Assembly: GCA_014859965.1 (NCBI GenBank) | Contig: JACZKQ010000102.1 | Coordinates: forward strand, 1 to 64,000 | Direction of reading: 5' to 3' | Length of the DNA: 64,000 bases | From: Phycisphaerae bacterium | Lineage (GTDB): Bacteria; Planctomycetota; Phycisphaerae; Sedimentisphaerales; Anaerohalosphaeraceae | Shown here: positions 21,772 through 43,192 of the stretch, piece by piece | How positions within the stretch are numbered: the first letter of the stretch is position 1 | Layout of the letters: each line of letters begins with the position of its first letter | Program-made: the position numbers and the translations under genes | Notes under the pieces: model-generated | Databases searched by the model: none | What the model was told of the DNA's origin: nothing | What the model saw: only the letters and a program-made list of their open reading frames with translations

Positions 21772-23343
21772 TCACACCTGACAGGCCGGCAGCGATACGA
21801 AGAACCGGCTGCCTTTGCCCAGCTCCGATTCCACCCATAATCTTCCGCCATGTCTTTCCAGTATGCGCCGTGCGATGGTAAGCCCCAATCCGTCGCCTTC
21901 GACGGGCCCGTCCGGCTCAAGCCGGTGGAATATTTCGAAGACCTTGCCCTGGTACTCGCGCGCGATTCCAACGCCATTATCTTCCACGCAATACACGGCC
22001 GCATCGCCCTGCACCGTTCCGGAGACGCGAACCGCACCCTTTCTCGCCGGGTCCAGGTACTTGATCGCGTTGGTCAGAAGATTGGTGAAAACCTGGTTTA
22101 CATGGCGACCGTCGCCGCGGCAGTTTGGCAGGTCGTCCACCCTGACCTCGGCGCCGCTGTTGGTGATCTGGAACTGCATGCCCGCGATAATGCGCTCCAT
22201 CATGTCGTTCATGTCAATTGTTGCGACTTTGAACGCCGCCGTCCCCACCCGCGATGCCTCCAGGAGCCCCTTCAGAAGCGACTGCATCTTTCCGGTGCCT
22301 GCCCGGATAAACCGAATTGATTCGGCCATGTCTTCCTCTATCACCCGTTTTAGCTGCCGCCGGATTTCCGGGCTGTAATCCTCGCTGCCTAACATCTCCT
22401 CGATCTGTTTGCAGGCCAGCACAAGTTCGCCGCTGAACCCCTCGATATTCACCAGCGGCGACTTCAAATCGTGCGAGGCCACGTAGACGATGCTTTGCAG
22501 TTCTTCATTTTTGACCTCAAGCGTTTTGAGCAGCCGTTCGCGCTCCTGCTCGGCCTCCTCGCGATCCGCCATCTCCAGGTTGATTCTGCGTATGTAGTTG
22601 CGCGTGTTGCGCGTTGCCGCAAGAACGCCCGCTCCGCCTAATATCCAGATGGCGGCATGTCCGAGCGACAGTGGAACCAAGGTCGTCGTCGCCCCCGACA
22701 GATAACGCTTCATCGGAACGGAAACACTGAAGCCCCCTCGGACATCGCCCACCTGGTAACCCTGCTCGGCGTGGCATTTTAGACATGATGAATCCGTTAA
22801 CATCGGACGCATGAGCCGCATGTATGGCTGACCGTCCAATGTCTCCACCGAGCTGACTTCACTGCTTCCGTTTTCGAAGGCCTTCAGCGCTTCGGCTTCC
22901 CACGCATCCGGAGCATTGCCCGGGCGAATCGGGTTGAGGCTCGTGAAATGCCCCTGGACCACACCTTTTCTGTGACCGTACGTATACAACTGCCGCATCA
23001 CGTAGGCTGCATTCATCAACGTGAGAGGCCGTCCGGAGGAAGTTTCGGCGTCTCGATCCGCAATGTGAGACAAGTACATGTTGGGCGGGATCTCTTCAGA
23101 AACAGACGCATAGATGCCTCCCTGTCCGGCAATCCACTGCTGGATAAGAAGATCCTTTTCCGACGACCCCCATGCCTCCATCAGCGCCCGCTGCCGAAAA
23201 TCCACCCTCACTCTGTATATGTTCCAGCCCAGGGACGCGCCCACAACGACTGTCCACGCGACAAGTAGTGCGATCGTATACTGCCCTCTGTAAAGGGATC
23301 GAATCTTTGGTGTTTTCGCTCGTTTCAAGGACGCTCCAAACAT
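21772..23343 (-). CDS. Sensor histidine kinase with Tll0287-like haem-type domain
   Basis: From ATG 23343 the product is 523 residues. A membrane helix (about 22-40) is followed by a periplasmic Tll0287-like (DUF3365) domain holding CLKCH at 187-191, the usual haem-attachment CxxCH. Then come a second helix (about 222-243), a short coiled coil, a HisKA domain with [13 protein letters not shown] (His291), and an ATPase domain with [19 protein letters not shown] and GDGLGLTI. Haem binding suggests redox, oxygen or NO sensing. The frame runs open upstream past the divergent rubrerythrin start, but those codons look non-coding. No response regulator lies adjacent. Confidence 0.88.
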
Positions 23344-23590
23344 CAACACAAGCCCCCGGCAACGGCCGCTGACTCTCGCACCGAAGGATACATCATAAAG
23401 GACCGGCCCGTCAACGGGTTTTCCCAAACGCAAGTTGGCGGCTTGGCGGGGCATGTCTCCTATCGGACGCATGCCTGGCGGAATACGCACCTTTTGTGCT
23501 AATGCTGCTACCAATCGAACCGTTTTGCCGATACGACCATAAGCTTCAGCCGGCCGATGCTGAACTTTACGACAAGGGGGGGCATGTGTT

Positions 23591-24163
23591 ATGCAAAAAA
23601 TGACAGAACAGAATTTGATCAACGCCTTTGGCGGCGAGGGGATGGCGCACATGCGGTATCTGCACTTTGCCCTGCGGGCCGAGCAGGACGATTTCCCGAA
23701 TGTCGCTCGCCTCTTTCGAGCCGTTGCAAGGGCCGAGTTCATCCATGCCGGAGACCACTACCGCGAATTAGACCATCTCGACGGGGGCTTCGTCGCCAAC
23801 GGCATGGGCGCATTTGGCCCAGGCGATACGTTTAAGAACCTGGGACTGGCGATCGCCGGAGAGACCTATGAAATAGACGAGATGTACCCGACGTACCTGG
23901 AGGTGGCGAGATTTCAGGGAGAGAAAGGCGCCCAGCGGAGTTTCGAGTGGGCGTATGGAACAGAAAAGATGCACAAGGCGCTATTCGAGAAGGCCCGCGG
24001 CGAAATGGAAGCCGGGCGCGACGTCGAGATGGGTACCCTGCACGTGTGCAGTGTCTGCGGCTATACGCTCGAAGGCGACGCGCCGGACAGATGTCCGCTA
24101 TGCGGCGTCTCCAAAGAAAAGTTTATCAGCTTTGAGCCCGGTATGCAGACCCAGCAGGCCTGA
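23591..24163 (+). CDS. Rubrerythrin
   Basis: Rubrerythrin is a non-haem di-iron peroxidase that removes hydrogen peroxide in anaerobes and microaerophiles. The 190 residues have a four-helix di-iron domain (HMRYLHFALRAEQ, AVARAEFIHAGDHYRE, GETYEIDEMYPTY, GTEKMHKALFEKA) and a C-terminal rubredoxin-type Fe(Cys)4 site built from CSVCGY and CPLCGVSK. An AAGGGGG run eight bases before ATG 23591 supports that start. It is divergent from the haem-type kinase, which hints at shared redox control. Confidence 0.95.
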   Translation: MQKMTEQNLINAFGGEGMAHMRYLHFALRAEQDDFPNVARLFRAVARAEFIHAGDHYRELDHLDGGFVANGMGAFGPGDTFKNLGLAIAGETYEIDEMYPTYLEVARFQGEKGAQRSFEWAYGTEKMHKALFEKARGEMEAGRDVEMGTLHVCSVCGYTLEGDAPDRCPLCGVSKEKFISFEPGMQTQQA

Positions 24164-24188
24164 AGGGCACACGGGAAGGATGCTCCTG

Positions 24189-26753
24189 CTAAGGTACTTT
24201 AAATACGGCTGTCGGCGGCCTGCCGTCCTGGTCGGCCTCGTAATCGTATGAAAACGTGCTCTTTGCACCGTTGATGTGACATGCCAAGAGGCGAAGCTGG
24301 TACGCGCCGGGCTCCAGTTCGCCGATTTGCAGGCGGAAATGGCCGTGTGCGTCGACGGGACAGGTCCAGCCGACCGCATCGTAATCGCCTTCGTGTCGGG
24401 CCGGGTCGTTGTAGGCTGCGATGCCATGGACTGCCGGGGCCGCCTCAATCCGCCCCGAGAGCACCAGCACCCCGTCGGCAAACGCAGCCTTCAGCTCCAC
24501 CAGTTCGCACCGCGGGCTCCGTCGTGCACCTTTCAAGTCGCCGGCAAACGGACGCGTATATGCCAACACCATCGCGCTCGTCTCCGTCAGGAAAGTACCG
24601 AGGCCCTCGGTGCGAAGCTCCTGACCGTATGTGTGATTGCCGTGACCCATCAGCGCCGTACCGCGGTCTGCATCGGCTTTTCGCTGGCAGGCGTGCGGCA
24701 GACCGAAGGCATGGCCCAATTCATGTGCAACTCCGCCGATATAGTGGGAATTAAATTTGCCGATAGAGCAGGGCCCGCCATAGAACCCCCCGGGCTCTTT
24801 GGACGACAGATTCTGCGGGTCGAGCAGCATATCATCATAGACCCACGCCGTTCCGCTGAGGTGATTGCCGCCGCCTACGTAAGGCCCGACCTCGACCGCT
24901 TTGTCTCCGTTCCAGTCCAGAAGAACCTGGAATATAACCACCGTTTCATGGTCCATATCCAATCCCGTGGACTTAAGCGCTTCCTTGACTTCATCTCTCA
25001 CTGCATCCCACGCATCGCGGCCGTACGTCGCGGCCGGATGGGCCCCCTGTACAACGCGAATCCGCATCTTGCCCGCATCATCCAGATCAAGGCCGAAAAC
25101 CTGACCTGCGCGCCCCGCCGCGGCCATGCCGTCGCCGTAAAAACGCTGCACCTCTTTCATCACACGCCCCAGACGCTCCTCATACCCTGCAAGCACGGTC
25201 CGGTCACACGGCACGAAATAGGCTATGTGTACAAGCCCTTGGCCGGCCGGACTTGAAACACCGGACGACTTGGAAGGGGAGCTGGTATAATGGTTTATGA
25301 CCTTTTCGATGGCCCGGCGGCTGACCGCGTTATACTGGCCGCCGCGGACGAAGTCGGTATCGATGCCTGAGCGGTAAAGCCCTTTGGCGGTGTAGCCGGC
25401 GCCCTCGAAGACGCCGATTGTGTCTGCGTGTTTTTCCCGATTCTCCCGGCGAATCGCCTCGATTTGTTCATCCACGCGACGATTTTGAGCTATTAATTCG
25501 TTGTGAAGGGCGATTTTTTTTGCTTCAGGGGCGTTTCTTGCCTCCAATCGCGCGATTTTTGCAGTGATTTTGTCGCTCTGGGCGTCCTTTTCGCCCCTCA
25601 GTTTTTCAATTTCTTCCTGGCCCCACGGCGTGGGGACAGCGATTCCGGGCGAAAGCAGGTCTTTCCATTTCACGTCCGACGGGTCCAAAAGGGCGGTGAT
25701 ATTGGACTCCAGCGGTTCCACGCCGGGCGGGAAGAATTCGTCGTAGGCGACCGAAGCGTTGAAGTATTCATCCGCAAGGTTCGCAAACGAATGCCCGAAC
25801 TCGTGCAGGAAGATTGTTTCGCTGGTGCGATGCCCGGCGGTGAAGATGCAGTAATCGTTGTAAATACCCCCGCCGCCGTATCGCGGGCTGTTGGCGATCA
25901 CCACAACGGTGTCATGCGGAACCCGCCCGGCGATGTCGTTCAAGGCCTTGTTGTCGTCGACGAGCAGGTAGCGATCCAGCCCCAGCGCATTATACGCCGC
26001 ACTGACGGCCGTGCCGCAAAAGACGCCCTTGTCCGGCTCATCCACCCCGGATTCCGCCGAGGCCCGGAACACGCCCGTAATATTGATGCGGTCGCGGTAC
26101 GTCTTGAACGGCTCCGCCTCAAGCAGTACCCGGGCGAACCGCTGCGCGTCAGCCTCAAAGTCGGCATGCTGTCCCTCGGTATAGCCCTCAGCGACGAACA
26201 CGATGTCGAGGCTCTCTTGAGGCGGGCCGCTCTGGACAATGACGTGGATTCGATCCCGTTCGTCCGGTTTCTCTTTGATGATGTTCACGTCCGCGGGATC
26301 AATCTTCGTGCTGAAGATCGGCGAGGACACGTTCTGCCGGTCACGCCGTTCTACGACAAACAGGACGGCTCTGCGGGGAAAAGGGACAAGGGCCGTGGCA
26401 TGGTAAGTGCGCATGACCCCGCTTCGGGCGGGATTCGTAGTCCTGTATTCGGCAAAAATACAACTGAATCCGCGCGAGAAGACGAGTGTGTTGGTGGCGA
26501 TGTCGTAAATTTTGACGCTATAAGGGCCGTAATTCAGATCATCGATGAGATGCTCCGGGCTGCCCGCCCACGTTTCGCGCCGGTATATCTGATCCAGCGT
26601 AATGATCTCGTCGCTGTGATTACCGGCCTGAAAATAGTCAATCCGCAGGGTGGCGTCGTCGAAGTATTCGTCGAAACAAATGCCGCGATCGGCGCACAGA
26701 CAAACACCCGGCGTAAACAGGATCAGCAGGCTGCAAACAAGTCCGATTCTCAT
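24189..26753 (-). CDS. Exported double metallopeptidase (M64-like plus metzincin-like)
   Basis: The product of about 854 residues starts with a signal peptide (MRIGLVCSLLILFTPGVCLCA). Residues of about 170-490 form a peptidase M64 domain with HEFGHSFANLADEY at 317-330. It carries an inserted charged, coiled-coil-like stretch near 375-440. A second, separate catalytic region follows, with HELGHAFGLPH at 677-687 and a Met-turn-like GTALMGHGN: the HExxHxxGxxH pattern of metzincins. The last 120 residues look like a beta-sandwich. ATG 26753 is chosen for its signal peptide and GGGGAT site; ATG 26777 is an alternative. A strong promoter lies upstream. Confidence 0.82.
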   Translation of the reverse strand: MRIGLVCSLLILFTPGVCLCADRGICFDEYFDDATLRIDYFQAGNHSDEIITLDQIYRRETWAGSPEHLIDDLNYGPYSVKIYDIATNTLVFSRGFSCIFAEYRTTNPARSGVMRTYHATALVPFPRRAVLFVVERRDRQNVSSPIFSTKIDPADVNIIKEKPDERDRIHVIVQSGPPQESLDIVFVAEGYTEGQHADFEADAQRFARVLLEAEPFKTYRDRINITGVFRASAESGVDEPDKGVFCGTAVSAAYNALGLDRYLLVDDNKALNDIAGRVPHDTVVVIANSPRYGGGGIYNDYCIFTAGHRTSETIFLHEFGHSFANLADEYFNASVAYDEFFPPGVEPLESNITALLDPSDVKWKDLLSPGIAVPTPWGQEEIEKLRGEKDAQSDKITAKIARLEARNAPEAKKIALHNELIAQNRRVDEQIEAIRRENREKHADTIGVFEGAGYTAKGLYRSGIDTDFVRGGQYNAVSRRAIEKVINHYTSSPSKSSGVSSPAGQGLVHIAYFVPCDRTVLAGYEERLGRVMKEVQRFYGDGMAAAGRAGQVFGLDLDDAGKMRIRVVQGAHPAATYGRDAWDAVRDEVKEALKSTGLDMDHETVVIFQVLLDWNGDKAVEVGPYVGGGNHLSGTAWVYDDMLLDPQNLSSKEPGGFYGGPCSIGKFNSHYIGGVAHELGHAFGLPHACQRKADADRGTALMGHGNHTYGQELRTEGLGTFLTETSAMVLAYTRPFAGDLKGARRSPRCELVELKAAFADGVLVLSGRIEAAPAVHGIAAYNDPARHEGDYDAVGWTCPVDAHGHFRLQIGELEPGAYQLRLLACHINGAKSTFSYDYEADQDGRPPTAVFKVP

Positions 26754-26791
26754 CACGCGATCCCCAAGAGTTTTCAAGTCCGCAAAGCCGT

Positions 26792-26820
26792 ATTATAGCC
26801 AATCCGCCCCCTGCCGTCAA
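26792..26820 (-). promoter_or_regulatory. Promoter of the double-metallopeptidase gene
   Basis: On the minus strand TTGACG (26820-26815), exactly 17 bases and a perfect TATAAT (26797-26792) form a near-consensus sigma-70 promoter, about 40 bases before the chosen ATG. Confidence 0.75.
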
Positions 26821-26939
26821 GCAGGCGCGGAGACCTTTGCAGCGAGGGTCAAAATTCTGGGTGCGATCAATGAAATGTGTGCCGGCTGAAATGGGCTTCA
26901 AGCCGTTTCTTTGCGATATGTTCCGTAAGGACCTGCGAC

Positions 26940-28484
26940 TCAGAAACGGTACTGCACGCTGAGGCTCGTCCAGTACTCATCCGAGGTGTTGACGGAATCA
27001 TCCCACGAAGTTTGATAGTTGAAGCCCGGAACGAACATAAAGCCGCTGCCCAGGTCGAAGTCTGTCGAAACACTGAACACCGCGTGTGACCAGTCGTGGT
27101 CGGCCGCGTTGCCCGCCGGCCCGAAACCGTCATTATAAAACGCATGTGCCCCCAAGCGCACCACCTGCTCCGGCTGGTTGCCGAAAATGCTCTCAAACGT
27201 GATGTTCTTGCTAAACCCGAGCAAGTGTCCCCACCCGCCGTCATTTCGGGCCGTACTGCCCGACACCGACGGCCAGTACGCAAACACCTCGTACTCCGGC
27301 ACAATTCCCCACGGCAGCAGATTCGGCCACGCGAACTCCCCGAAAATCTCCTGCGCATCGGCCGTCTGGCGAATCAGCGGATTGCCCCGCCGCGGTGTAT
27401 CCGGGTAACTATAGTACCGGTATCCCACCCGAAAATGCATCGCGTGCGCCTCTCCCGCAAACAGCGCCCCCCCGTAGTATCCCGTAAACGTCAGCCATTC
27501 GCTGTCTTCGAATCCCGAGCCGTTCGCCCGCGACATCCACACGTTCACCCCAAAACCCGTCCCGAAAAGGTCCATGTCCACGCTCGGCTGAAACGCACCG
27601 TGGTTATTCTCGTAAATGTCGTATCCCCTCCAAATGAACCGGCTCACGTAAGTCGCGTCAATCACGCCATGCAGCCCGCCCAATCCGTCCGTCGTGTGTT
27701 CCGGCCGCCGGGTTAATGGTCTGTTTTCCGGCTGAGGCTCATAAATCGGTTTTCGATCCGTCGTAAATGCAACCGGCGGAGAAACAACGTACGTCCGTAC
27801 GGGTCTATCGAATGCGTTTTTCGGTCCTTCCACGTCGCTGGCCGCTCCCATGACGCTCATGCTCATAACGACATCGCCGGCCGCCTTGGTTGTCGACGCG
27901 GCACTGACGACTGCGGGCCGTTCGATAATCGCCTCCGCCGCATACGCGGTCTCCATGGACTCCCACTCCGCCGTTGTGAGCAAAGTCTCCACCTTCGGCT
28001 CGACCGCCGGCGTCGCAATCACCGGCTCCTCAGCCGCGTCGAAATCATAGCTTGCGTCATACCTTGATTGCACCGGAGGCGTTGGTACGACCTCTGAACT
28101 GGCCAAAGGTTGAGTTGCCGCCTCGACCTTATGCGACGGGATTGCCGGCCGTGCCATGTCTGCAGCCGCGGGCGCACTGTCCAGCATCGTCGCCGCCATC
28201 GGCTCGGGCGCGACTACGTGTTTAACAGTCTCGGCCGCTGCCGCTTCCTCTCCCGGCCGCATACCAAAGGGCAGGCGCAACTCTTCATTGGCCACCCTCG
28301 CCAGATTCGTTACGCGGTCGTCCTCCCCCGGCCGCTCGAATTGCCATCGCTGCCCCGCCAGCGAGTCCGACACGCCAGGAATGGGCTTTTCGTCCCGGCC
28401 GCCCCACATACCCGCGAACCGTGCAACGCCAAGAAAACCACCCCCAACCAGAACAATGACCACCATCCATGACAGCTTTCGCAT
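26940..28484 (-). CDS. Porin-like outer-membrane protein with long linker
   Basis: The 514-residue product opens with a signal or anchor helix (MRKLSWMVVIVLVGGGFLGVA). It then has roughly 210 residues rich in Ala, Pro, Val and Glu, and a C-terminal beta-rich region from about residue 240 (GLHGVIDATYVSRFIWRGYD). That region has alternating hydrophobic strands, many aromatics and a terminal YRF, the usual outer-membrane insertion signal. The barrel resembles the TorF/TIGR02001-type putative porins. ATG 28484 has an AAGGGAGAT site three bases before it; the open frame upstream has no support. What it transports is not evident. Confidence 0.72.
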   Translation of the reverse strand: MRKLSWMVVIVLVGGGFLGVARFAGMWGGRDEKPIPGVSDSLAGQRWQFERPGEDDRVTNLARVANEELRLPFGMRPGEEAAAAETVKHVVAPEPMAATMLDSAPAAADMARPAIPSHKVEAATQPLASSEVVPTPPVQSRYDASYDFDAAEEPVIATPAVEPKVETLLTTAEWESMETAYAAEAIIERPAVVSAASTTKAAGDVVMSMSVMGAASDVEGPKNAFDRPVRTYVVSPPVAFTTDRKPIYEPQPENRPLTRRPEHTTDGLGGLHGVIDATYVSRFIWRGYDIYENNHGAFQPSVDMDLFGTGFGVNVWMSRANGSGFEDSEWLTFTGYYGGALFAGEAHAMHFRVGYRYYSYPDTPRRGNPLIRQTADAQEIFGEFAWPNLLPWGIVPEYEVFAYWPSVSGSTARNDGGWGHLLGFSKNITFESIFGNQPEQVVRLGAHAFYNDGFGPAGNAADHDWSHAVFSVSTDFDLGSGFMFVPGFNYQTSWDDSVNTSDEYWTSLSVQYRF

Positions 28485-28830
28485 GATATCTCCCTTATCA
28501 AGTGGATTCCTGCATCTCCACAGCAATCTTCGCAGTCCTCCTCCGGTATTTTCCTTGCCGGCATCGCAAACATCAAGAAAAAAATCTCCCGCGTCCGGAA
28601 AAAAGCTTGCCTGATTTACAATGCAGACGGTATCAGGCGGCAGGTTCTTGCGGATCTGCGTCGCCGATTGCCTCGCGCCCTGGCGATGAAAGCGCGCACA
28701 GAAGCAACCCCGATTTTTACGCTGAGGGAACTATGGTTAATAAGTGAAGTTGAAGTGCTGCAAAGGGCTTACCGGCATCCTCGCTGACAATCTGAACGCC
28801 TGCCTCTCGGGGCATCAGGCACCCGCGCGA
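28485..28830. other. Gene-free interval before the porin-like gene
   Basis: No convincing gene was found in these 346 bases. A weak hairpin (GCCTG paired with CAGGC, about 28800-28823) just past the aquaporin stop could end that transcript, but it lacks a T-run. I could not define a promoter for the porin-like gene. Confidence 0.5.
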
Positions 28831-29828: not shown

Positions 29829-31409
<1,581 letters not shown>

Positions 31410-39791: not shown

Positions 39792-42700
39792 ATGCTAAAC
39801 GGGATGAGAAGTAGCTTGTGGTTGGTCTGTGCGGCAGCGGCTTTGCTCGGAGCGATTCCGCCGGCGGAGGGCTTGTGTGATGTGACGGTATCGGGTCTGC
39901 GCTGTGAGTACCTGACCGATCCGCTTGGGATCGATGTCCTCGAACCTCGCCTGAGCTGGATGCTGGAAGCAGAGGGCGATGGGGCGAAGACGGGTCGCGG
40001 TGTGTCGCAGTCGGCCTGTCGCATTCTTGTGGCCTCCTCGCCGGAGCGACTCGCCCGCGACGAGGGCGACCTCTGGGACAGCGGCAAAATAACCTCCGGC
40101 GAGACTCAGCATGTCGCATACAGCGGCAGCGCCTTGCTCGCCCGTCAGCGTTGCCATTGGAAGGTGCGGATTTGGGATGGGGACGGGAAGGCATCCGGCT
40201 GGAGCGCGCCCGGGCAGTGGACGATGGGCCTTCTGGCGCCGGAGGATTGGCGGGCAAGCTGGATCACCGCGGGGGCGGAGGACGACAAGCCTTTACGGGA
40301 CTGCAACTGGATTTGGTCGGCTCGGGCGGCCGAGGGCGACCCTTCGATCATGCCGCCGGGAACCCGCTGGTTCCGCCGGCGTTTTGCGCTGCCGGCCGGG
40401 GCGGTTGCTGCTAAGGCCACCCTGTACTTGACAGCGGACAATTCCTTTACCGCTTATCTGAACGGCCGCCAGGTGCTGCAGGGGAGCCAGTGGCAGAGCC
40501 TGGCCGCCGTTGCGGTCGCGGACAGGCTGGTTGCCGGCGACAATGTAATTGCTGTTTGCGCCGTCAATGGGGGCACAGCTCCCAATCCGGCCGGCCTGCT
40601 CGGCTATTTGACGATTACCCTGAAGGATGGCGCGCAACACGCCGTCCCGGTGGACACTCACTGGCGGACCCGGAACGAAGAAGAAGCGGGGTGGACCGGT
40701 TTGGATTTTGATGACCGGTCGTGGCCCGCGGCCGTGTCGGTGGCGCGTTTTGGCGAGGGGCAATGGGGAACACAAGTGAATGTGCCGCGCAATCTGCCGT
40801 TGTTGCGCACGGCGTTTTGTGTCGACAAGCCGGTGCGACGCGCGGAACTGTCCATTTGCGGCCTGGGCTCTTATGAAGGGCTGCTGAACGGCCGCATGCT
40901 GGACGATGCCGTACTCGAACCGGGTTGGACCAACTACCGAAAATCCGTCTTGTATCGCGTGCATGACGTAACCGCCCGTCTTGTGCCGGGGGAGAATGTG
41001 CTGGGTGTGCTGCTGGGCAACAGCATGTACAATGTAACCGGCGGACGTTATACCAAATTCACCGGGTCTTTCGGGCCGCCCAAACTGATCGCTCAACTCG
41101 ATATCGACTATCAGGACGGAACCCGCAGCCGAGTTGTCAGTGATGCGAATTGGCGAACCTCGCCCGGGCCGATCACCTTCTCCTGCATTTTCGGCGGCGA
41201 AGATTATGACGCGCGTCAGGAGCAGGCCGGATGGGACCACAGTGGTTTCGATGACTCCGGTTGGAAACCTGCGCGGGAATGCGACGGTCCCGGCGGAACG
41301 TTGACCACTCGCTCGGCTCCGCCTGTCAAGGCGATGGAAATACTTCAGCCGGTGGGGATCACCCGTCCGCGGGCCGATGTGTGGGTTTATGATCTGGGAC
41401 AGAATTTCTCGGGCTGGCCCAGATTGAGCGTGGCCGGTCCGGCGGGGGCTGCCGTCAAAATGATTACCGGGGAACTGCTGGACGAAAATGGCCTGGTCAG
41501 CCAGCGCAGCAGCGGCGGGCCAGTCTGGTTTGCCTACACGCTCAAGGGGGACGCGCCGGAGGTCTGGCGGCCGCGATTCAGCTACAGCGGGTTTCGGTAT
41601 GTACAGGTAGAGGGCGCGGTGCCGGATGGGCGTCAGGCCGAGGGGCTCGGATTGCCCCGCATCCTGCATCTTCAGGGAGAGTTTCTTTATCCCGATACCT
41701 CCGTGGCCGGACAGTTCGCCTGTTCTAACGACGAGGTCAACCGGGTGCATGCCCTGATACTGGCGGCCATCAAGAGCAACTTCAAGAGTGTGCTGACCGA
41801 CTGTCCGCACCGTGAAAAGCTGGGGTGGCTGGAATGTTCGCACCTGCTGGCGGGCTGCTTCATGTACAATTTTGACTGCGCCCGGTTCTACGACAAGATT
41901 GCCCGGGACATGCGCGAGTCGCAGCTTGACAATGGACTCGTGCCGGATATAGCGCCGGAATATGTGGTGTTCAGCGGTGGTTTTCGCGATTCACCGGAAT
42001 GGGGCAGCGCCTCAGTGCTTTCGCCCTGGCGCACCTGGCGGATGTATGGCGATGTGCGGATATTGCAAGAACAGTATGAGACCATGAAACGGTATGTGGC
42101 ATACCTGGGCACGCGGGCCAAAGACCATATCGTGGCTTACGGACTGGGAGACTGGTACGACATCGGTCCGCGCGGGCCGGGACCCTCGCAGCTTACGTCA
42201 CTGGGGTTGACTGCGACCGGGGTTTACTATCAGGACATTAATGCCGTGCGGCAAATCGCGGCCCTGCTGGGGCGGGAGGACGATGCCGGTTTTTATGCCC
42301 GGCTGGCCGGCGAGGTCAAAAACGCCTTTGCAGCGGCCTTTTTCGATGCGGACACGAACCGGTATGATCGCAACAGCCAGACAGCGAGCGCCATGCCGTT
42401 ATTTCTGGATTTGGCGGCGCCTGGGCGGAGGGCCCTGGTGCTCGATAACCTGGTCGCCGACATTCGCGCCCGCGGCAACCGTGTGACCGCCGGGGATGTT
42501 GGTTTTTATTATGTGGTTCAGGCCTTGTTGGACGGCGGGCGCAGCGATGTGCTTTATGACATGCTCTGCCAAACCGAGGGCCCGGGTTATATGTACCAGC
42601 TCCAGAAGAACGCCACGAGCCTCACCGAGGCCTGGGACACCAACCCGGCTTCGTCTCAAAACCACTGCATGCTGGGCCACATTGAAGAGTGGTTTTACAG

Positions 42701-43040
42701 CGGACTGCTCGGCATCCGGCCCGCCGAGCCCGGATTTCGCCGGATTATTATCCAACCCCAGTTGGTGGGCGACCTAACCTGGGTTCGCGGCTATTACGAC
42801 TGCCCGTACGGCCGGATCGCCTGCGCGTGGCGGCGGGATGATGACACGGTCACACTCGACGTCACGATTCCCGTAAACACCACAGCTACTGTCTTCATCC
42901 CTGCCTGTGACGCAGCAACGGTTACTGAAGCGGGCCAACCGGTGGCCCGGGCCGCGGGGGTGACGTTTTTGCGGATGCAGGGGCAGGCTGCTGTTTTTCA
43001 GGTCGGCTCCGGAGTGTACCGGTTCGCATCGAAAATGTGA
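39792..43040 (+). CDS. Exported alpha-L-rhamnosidase (GH78)
   Basis: This 1082-residue enzyme cleaves terminal alpha-L-rhamnose from plant or algal polysaccharides and glycosides. A signal peptide (LWLVCAAAALLGAIPPAEG) is followed by the N-terminal fibronectin-like and beta-sandwich domains of GH78 (VSGLRCEYLTDPLGID, LSWMLEAEG). The (alpha/alpha)6 catalytic domain has TDCPHREKLGWLECSH near residue 670, and a C-terminal beta domain follows (WVRGYYDCPYGRIACAW). The length is typical. It stands alone: no sugar transporter or rhamnose catabolic genes are adjacent, and the upstream neighbour is the divergent sigma factor. Confidence 0.93.
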   Translation: MLNGMRSSLWLVCAAAALLGAIPPAEGLCDVTVSGLRCEYLTDPLGIDVLEPRLSWMLEAEGDGAKTGRGVSQSACRILVASSPERLARDEGDLWDSGKITSGETQHVAYSGSALLARQRCHWKVRIWDGDGKASGWSAPGQWTMGLLAPEDWRASWITAGAEDDKPLRDCNWIWSARAAEGDPSIMPPGTRWFRRRFALPAGAVAAKATLYLTADNSFTAYLNGRQVLQGSQWQSLAAVAVADRLVAGDNVIAVCAVNGGTAPNPAGLLGYLTITLKDGAQHAVPVDTHWRTRNEEEAGWTGLDFDDRSWPAAVSVARFGEGQWGTQVNVPRNLPLLRTAFCVDKPVRRAELSICGLGSYEGLLNGRMLDDAVLEPGWTNYRKSVLYRVHDVTARLVPGENVLGVLLGNSMYNVTGGRYTKFTGSFGPPKLIAQLDIDYQDGTRSRVVSDANWRTSPGPITFSCIFGGEDYDARQEQAGWDHSGFDDSGWKPARECDGPGGTLTTRSAPPVKAMEILQPVGITRPRADVWVYDLGQNFSGWPRLSVAGPAGAAVKMITGELLDENGLVSQRSSGGPVWFAYTLKGDAPEVWRPRFSYSGFRYVQVEGAVPDGRQAEGLGLPRILHLQGEFLYPDTSVAGQFACSNDEVNRVHALILAAIKSNFKSVLTDCPHREKLGWLECSHLLAGCFMYNFDCARFYDKIARDMRESQLDNGLVPDIAPEYVVFSGGFRDSPEWGSASVLSPWRTWRMYGDVRILQEQYETMKRYVAYLGTRAKDHIVAYGLGDWYDIGPRGPGPSQLTSLGLTATGVYYQDINAVRQIAALLGREDDAGFYARLAGEVKNAFAAAFFDADTNRYDRNSQTASAMPLFLDLAAPGRRALVLDNLVADIRARGNRVTAGDVGFYYVVQALLDGGRSDVLYDMLCQTEGPGYMYQLQKNATSLTEAWDTNPASSQNHCMLGHIEEWFYSGLLGIRPAEPGFRRIIIQPQLVGDLTWVRGYYDCPYGRIACAWRRDDDTVTLDVTIPVNTTATVFIPACDAATVTEAGQPVARAAGVTFLRMQGQAAVFQVGSGVYRFASKM

Positions 43041-43121: not shown

Positions 43122-43192
43122 TGGAGCTGGCGGGAATCGAACCCGCATCCCCGCGATGCGACCGCGGTGTACTCCCATTATACGACAGCCCC
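43122..43192 (-). tRNA. tRNA-Ala (anticodon CGC)
   Basis: The minus strand folds into a 71-base tRNA. The 7-bp acceptor stem contains the G3-U70 pair that marks alanine tRNAs, and the discriminator is A73. The D arm is short, the anticodon stem is a perfect 5 bp (CCGCG/CGCGG) with loop GTCGCAT, the variable loop is 4 bases, and the T arm is GCGGG-TTCGATT-CCCGC. The anticodon reads CGC, decoding GCG. CCA is not encoded. The C at position 9 and the loop bases G32 and T38 are unusual. Confidence 0.85.

Follow-up and report, generated by a model that had tools for sequence, protein, structure and literature searches.

The DNA analysed here, referred to as the window, is a stretch of 64,000 nucleotides from contig JACZKQ010000102.1 of a Phycisphaerae bacterium. 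On its reverse strand lies a single uninterrupted open frame for a protein of 854 amino acids, in which two zinc peptidase modules follow one another behind a putative signal peptide (Table 1). The start codon is preceded, at a distance of about 8 nt on its 5' side, by GGGG, which resembles a ribosome site. A consensus scan of positions 23500-27100 returned one promoter-like site; since shuffled sequences give 1.3 on average, a single match is no more than chance yields, and the site counts as weak support. From its signal peptide, the two-protease chain is predicted to be an exported protein.

Table 1. Features of the fused gene and its upstream region (positions in the window)
Feature	Position	Strand	Basis and remarks
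Promoter-like site TTGACG-17-TATAAT, shortly upstream of the gene	26792..26820	-	Consensus scan, 11/12 matches
Whole gene, 854 aa + stop	24189..26753	-	ATG at 26753; single uninterrupted open frame
Putative N-terminal signal peptide, residues 1 to ~21, MRIGLVCSLLILFTPGVCLCA	26691..26753	-	Recognized by eye from the sequence
M64_N beta-sandwich domain, residues 27-143	26325..26675	-	Pfam PF16217, residue mapping; Glu102 = BF3526 E97
Peptidase_M64 catalytic domain, residues 172-486	25296..26240	-	Pfam PF09471, 4df9 match
Zinc site 1, HEFGHSFANLADEY, residues 317-330	25764..25805	-	Ligands H317, H321, D328; base E318
Charged helical-hairpin insert, BF3526 loop 4, residues 379-441	25431..25619	-	Alignment, AF2 model
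Fusion-point linker rich in Ser and Pro, residues 491-505	25239..25283	-	Alignments, junction DNA; ~15 residues
O-glycopeptidase-type module, residues 506-854, no NPCBM tail	24192..25238	-	PDB matches; stand-alone genes share 73% identity
Zinc site 2 and Met-turn	24636..24725	-	HELGHAFGLPH (H677, E678, H681, H687) through M702, N706

The immediate neighbours of the fused gene encode a rubrerythrin, a histidine kinase, an aquaporin and a PRC-barrel protein; they are unrelated housekeeping or regulatory genes and are uninformative on mucin. The histidine kinase (21772-23742) has a Tll0287-like, possibly heme-sensing domain, and the rubrerythrin gene beside it (23591-24163, + strand) is divergently oriented. 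An exported-looking protein of 528 amino acids (26940-28526) combines a Pro/Ala-rich N-terminal half with a beta-barrel-like C-terminal part and has no Pfam match. The PRC-barrel protein (29829-31409) contains very long polyglutamine runs (>15 Q consecutively). A large alpha-L-rhamnosidase with Pfam Bac_rhamnosid domains is encoded at 39792-43040, followed on the opposite strand by a tRNA-Ala (CGC) at 43122-43192.

An earlier note on this DNA, made from the letters alone, had reported two zinc motifs about 360 residues apart and had assigned them to two unlike zinc peptidase sites in one chain. Both statements hold: HEFGHSFANLADEY begins at residue 317 and HELGHAFGLPH at 677, a distance of exactly 360. 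Full-length domain homology was found for each half separately, which puts the observation of two sites well beyond chance.

The first half is covered by the Pfam models PF16217 (M64_N; E 4.6e-34; 117.1 bits against a cut-off of 27) and PF09471 (E 2e-70; 237.8 bits against a cut-off of 26; profile positions 3-302 of 302). Its nearest PDB sequence is the Bacteroides enzyme BF3526 (4df9, E 4.9e-70), followed by 3p1v (E 8.1e-68). The published BF3526-peptide complex provides a list of catalytic and main substrate-contact residues (PMC12402451), which we mapped onto the fused protein via alignment. All ten (E97, R255, Y256, Y286, G290, H311, E312, H315, D322 and Y324) are identical. Zinc site 1 falls on H311/E312/H315/D322/Y324, and the contacts E97, R255, Y256, Y286, G290 and Y324 correspond here to E102, R261, Y262, Y292, G296 and Y330. 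Changes are seen at N304, at D329 and M331 (which close the loop), at the motif Gly and at the second-zinc cysteines.

One of these changes concerns the M64 pattern itself, which is HEXXHXXXGXXD (PMC12402451), and calls for a correction to the earlier note. The ligands and the base of this pattern are present, but its Gly is replaced by Asn325; the stand-alone relative L017 likewise has Asn. At the second zinc site of BF3526 (E323, C398, C409, C412), the fused protein keeps E329, has T466 and S478 at the first and third cysteine positions, and has lost the second by deletion. The cysteines are also missing from the M64 relatives L005, L017 and L018. The charged insert that had been noticed in the first domain (residues ~379-441) is indeed there, and it is common to the same three stand-alone relatives and absent from L006, L019, L020 and L023. 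Since three stand-alone relatives carry the insert, it is regarded as a trait of a subgroup; since these three are without the cysteines and one of them has the Asn, the same applies to Asn325 and the cysteine loss, which are thus not signs of decay. In L005, L017, L018 and the window, the insert, a helical hairpin in the flexible loop above the M64 active site, is accompanied by the absence of the second-zinc cysteines, and it may brace this loop in place of the second zinc.

Structure prediction of the full chain by AF2, with an alignment of the window, L086 and L087, gave a mean pLDDT of 42. L088 was left out of this alignment because it is an M64 protein and had aligned to the second zinc motif. 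The insert came out as helical (pLDDT about 50-71), but no usable 3D model was obtained.

For the second half, which consists of a catalytic domain and a beta-rich C-terminal part, the earlier note had suggested a metzincin. The zinc-binding centre and the Met-turn (...GTALMGHGN, Met702) bear this out, but by its PDB sequence matches this half is best assigned to the OgpA/AMUC_1438 group of O-glycopeptidases and not to a generic metzincin. AMUC_1438 (8dek/8df2) matches residues 502-836 with E 6e-43, and OgpA (6z2o) matches residues 508-845 with E 7e-24. In the domain search that had been advised, the metzincin Pfam models scored weakly, as follows from membership in this group: outside the region around the motif, the family falls into no MEROPS or Pfam class (PMC9513282). 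A generic reprolysin or M6 identity was considered and rejected, the Pfam matches being weak and located around the motif (M6 model, 33.9 bits against a cut-off of 110.8).

Residues H677, E678, H681, H687 and M702 align to H223, E224, H227, H233 and M248 of AMUC_1438, so the Met-turn-like segment described before is confirmed, and the HEXXHXXXXXH and Met-turn columns are invariant among 19 relatives. The O-GalNAc contacts D166, Y171 and Y217 of AMUC_1438 align to D613, Y625 and Y671, of which the two tyrosines are conserved. D613 stands beside a 7-residue alignment gap, an insertion of the fused protein relative to AMUC_1438, and its column varies among relatives, which makes strict Tn-antigen specificity uncertain. 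Neither Pfam nor the alignment finds a C-terminal NPCBM module, as the frame stops at 24189, right after the catalytic module. Such a tail is not taken to be a need of the whole family, because the solved OgpA chain (~370 aa) is matched nearly to its end without one.

Stand-alone M64 relatives stop near what is residue 490 in the fused protein; the linker, short and of low complexity, bridges this usual C-terminus and the beginning of the second module. The close stand-alone O-glycopeptidases each start after a signal peptide of their own and carry an NPCBM-like module at the C-terminus (confirmed by Pfam for L086). The fused protein has neither the second signal peptide nor the NPCBM module, so that the junction lies at natural domain ends. 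Two tandem genes separated by a frameshift were also considered and rejected, since the second signal peptide has been lost. The host genome is a 199-contig assembly and no second genome with the fusion was found, which would agree with an assembly chimera made from two unrelated reads or contigs. Nevertheless, the codon usage of both halves is within the range of the neighbouring genes and hence native, the gene lies mid-contig, and a linker is present. As the join is moreover in frame and located at both domain ends, namely the end of the M64 domain and the point where the mucinase's signal peptide, now lost, would have ended, we consider a chimera highly improbable.

The distribution of the two modules was surveyed in ~812 whole genomes, all Planctomycetota; the searches at phylum and class level covered a sample of genomes and scored no more than two candidates each. 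Both modules are common in this set, elsewhere as separate genes, and a six-frame check of 86 loci placed both in one frame in this genome only. The occurrence in one assembly is a bound and does not prove that the fusion is unique. A contig-collection search returned a stand-alone sister only, with no fusion, and viral contigs contained one distant relative of each half, again with no fusion. Plasmids hold M64 relatives, yet no plasmid record spans 80% of the protein. In one genome (G696, L082:838-3530), two M64 genes are adjacent. The earlier note knew of no described enzyme with this pair, and neither the ~812 genomes nor the literature searches, which were thin on subscription journals, provided a fused relative or a paper on such an M64/O-glycopeptidase fusion. 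The pairing therefore looks real and new, and each half, by homology, adds a member to a known family.

The two halves differ in their sister sequences. For the O-glycopeptidase half these are the stand-alone genes G023 and G026, from the same family (100/100), and for the M64 half it is L005, from a different family of the same order (93/92); hence this lineage probably joined two genes that had been inherited separately. The joining may have been an accident that left both domains working independently and without coupling. The occurrence of the fusion in 1 of ~812 genomes where separate genes are common, and the short, low-complexity linker, would suit such an accident, while the retention of both functional residue sets argues against it. 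In addition, the fused gene is the sole M64 gene above the cut-off and contains the sole OgpA-type domain found in this genome. With no stand-alone copy of either enzyme, the fused gene appears to be one that is being maintained, and we regard a mere accident as unlikely, if by no means negligible.

Our preferred reading is that the gene encodes two exported zinc peptidases fused into one chain, an O-glycopeptidase that cuts and an M64 enzyme that trims, acting on one mucin-like substrate; on the evidence described here, we give it a probability of about 60%. AMUC_1438 cuts directly before GalNAc-Ser/Thr (PMC9513282). BF3526 trims the Pro-rich VPCPVPSTPP, starting at the N-terminal end, and also binds STPP; its M64_N domain works as a gate (PMC12402451). 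In the fused protein, the C-terminal half would recognize a small O-glycan (O-GalNAc or similar) and cut the peptide bond directly before the glycosylated Ser/Thr. The BF3526-type half, gated by M64_N, would then trim the N-termini of the resulting Pro/Ser/Thr-rich fragments, and the single chain would keep cutter and trimmer together on the substrate. Homology shows what the parts are, while both activities, their order and any coupling are inferred. A coupled endo/exo hand-over, in which the M64 half shortens each new N-terminus by two residues per step until the next glycan, is a speculative extension that we think rather improbable.

One half might also have become inactive as a peptidase and serve in binding or gating instead; the M64 half, for example, might replace the lost NPCBM as substrate holder. 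The NPCBM module is missing here and present in the sister genes, and the M64 half has lost the second-zinc cysteines and carries Asn in place of the motif Gly, all of which could be read in this way. But the zinc ligands, the general base and the substrate-contact residues are intact in both halves, and stand-alone M64 relatives likewise show the Asn and lack the cysteines. This explanation is accordingly given little credence.

The role in glycoprotein breakdown that the earlier note proposed is favoured by the evidence as likely, but IgA is not the best guess for the substrate. An IgA-type immune protease would be in line with the Pfam name of the domain, IgA Peptidase M64, as the M64 family includes ThomasA, which is an IgA protease (PMC12402451). 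However, the M64 half is far nearer to BF3526 than to the IgA-specific M64 enzymes, which match it weakly at E ~1e-10 (9ekk, E 4.5e-10). BF3526 leaves intact IgA uncut and trims pre-cut fragments near their N-terminus (PMC12402451), so the fused protein is probably not an IgA protease, and we hold this identity to be extremely unlikely.

The genome further contains an M60 peptidase gene, nearly 40 sulfatases (40 matches, some of them split) and two NPCBM proteins. The M60 frame (L089:2-1345) runs off the start of its contig and is a fragment. In Phycisphaerales bacterium UBA7708, the stand-alone sister gene adjoins a GH36 gene, and a GH92 gene lies at a greater distance. The M60 peptidase, the sulfatases and the GH36 and GH92 genes of the sister make up a setting that fits the degradation of glycoproteins.

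We have not seen a joint role of BF3526-type M64 enzymes and O-glycopeptidases proposed before. By a Rosetta-stone argument, the fusion suggests that O-glycopeptidases may supply the natural substrates of BF3526-type M64 enzymes, whose targets are N-termini of pre-cut chains rich in Pro, Ser and Thr. If the hand-over took place, it would make the protein a coupled endo/exo enzyme for mucin domains, of which we found no described counterpart. A possible application is a one-enzyme reagent for the breakdown of mucin domains in glycoproteomics.

Compared with known systems, the fused protein shares the M64_N and M64 layout and ~35% identity with BF3526 (Bacteroides fragilis, 4DF9/9QDI), which is without a second protease domain and without the helical insert, but has the second zinc site and the motif Gly. 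The M64 catalytic core of ThomasA (Thomasclavelia ramosa) is matched only weakly, at E about 1e-10, and ThomasA differs in being IgA-specific, with one catalytic domain and other accessory domains. On the O-glycopeptidase side, the catalytic module resembles that of AMUC_1438 (Akkermansia muciniphila, 8DEK/8DF2), with ~40% identity over the aligned catalytic part, whereas AMUC_1438 is a stand-alone enzyme that has a signal peptide to itself and ends in an NPCBM/CBM51-like module, which helps substrate binding and which the fused protein does not have. OgpA (Amuc_1119, 6Z2O) is of the same fold family and matched over the region given above, but it is more distant, accepts a range of O-glycans and is not fused. 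The closest relatives of the second half, the stand-alone G023 (UBA7708) and G026 enzymes, are 73% identical to it and differ in that each has a separate signal peptide, an NPCBM tail and no M64 domain. Somatic ACE contains two M2 zinc sites in one chain, which are duplicates of one family; the fused protein likewise has two zinc sites per chain, but from two different families.
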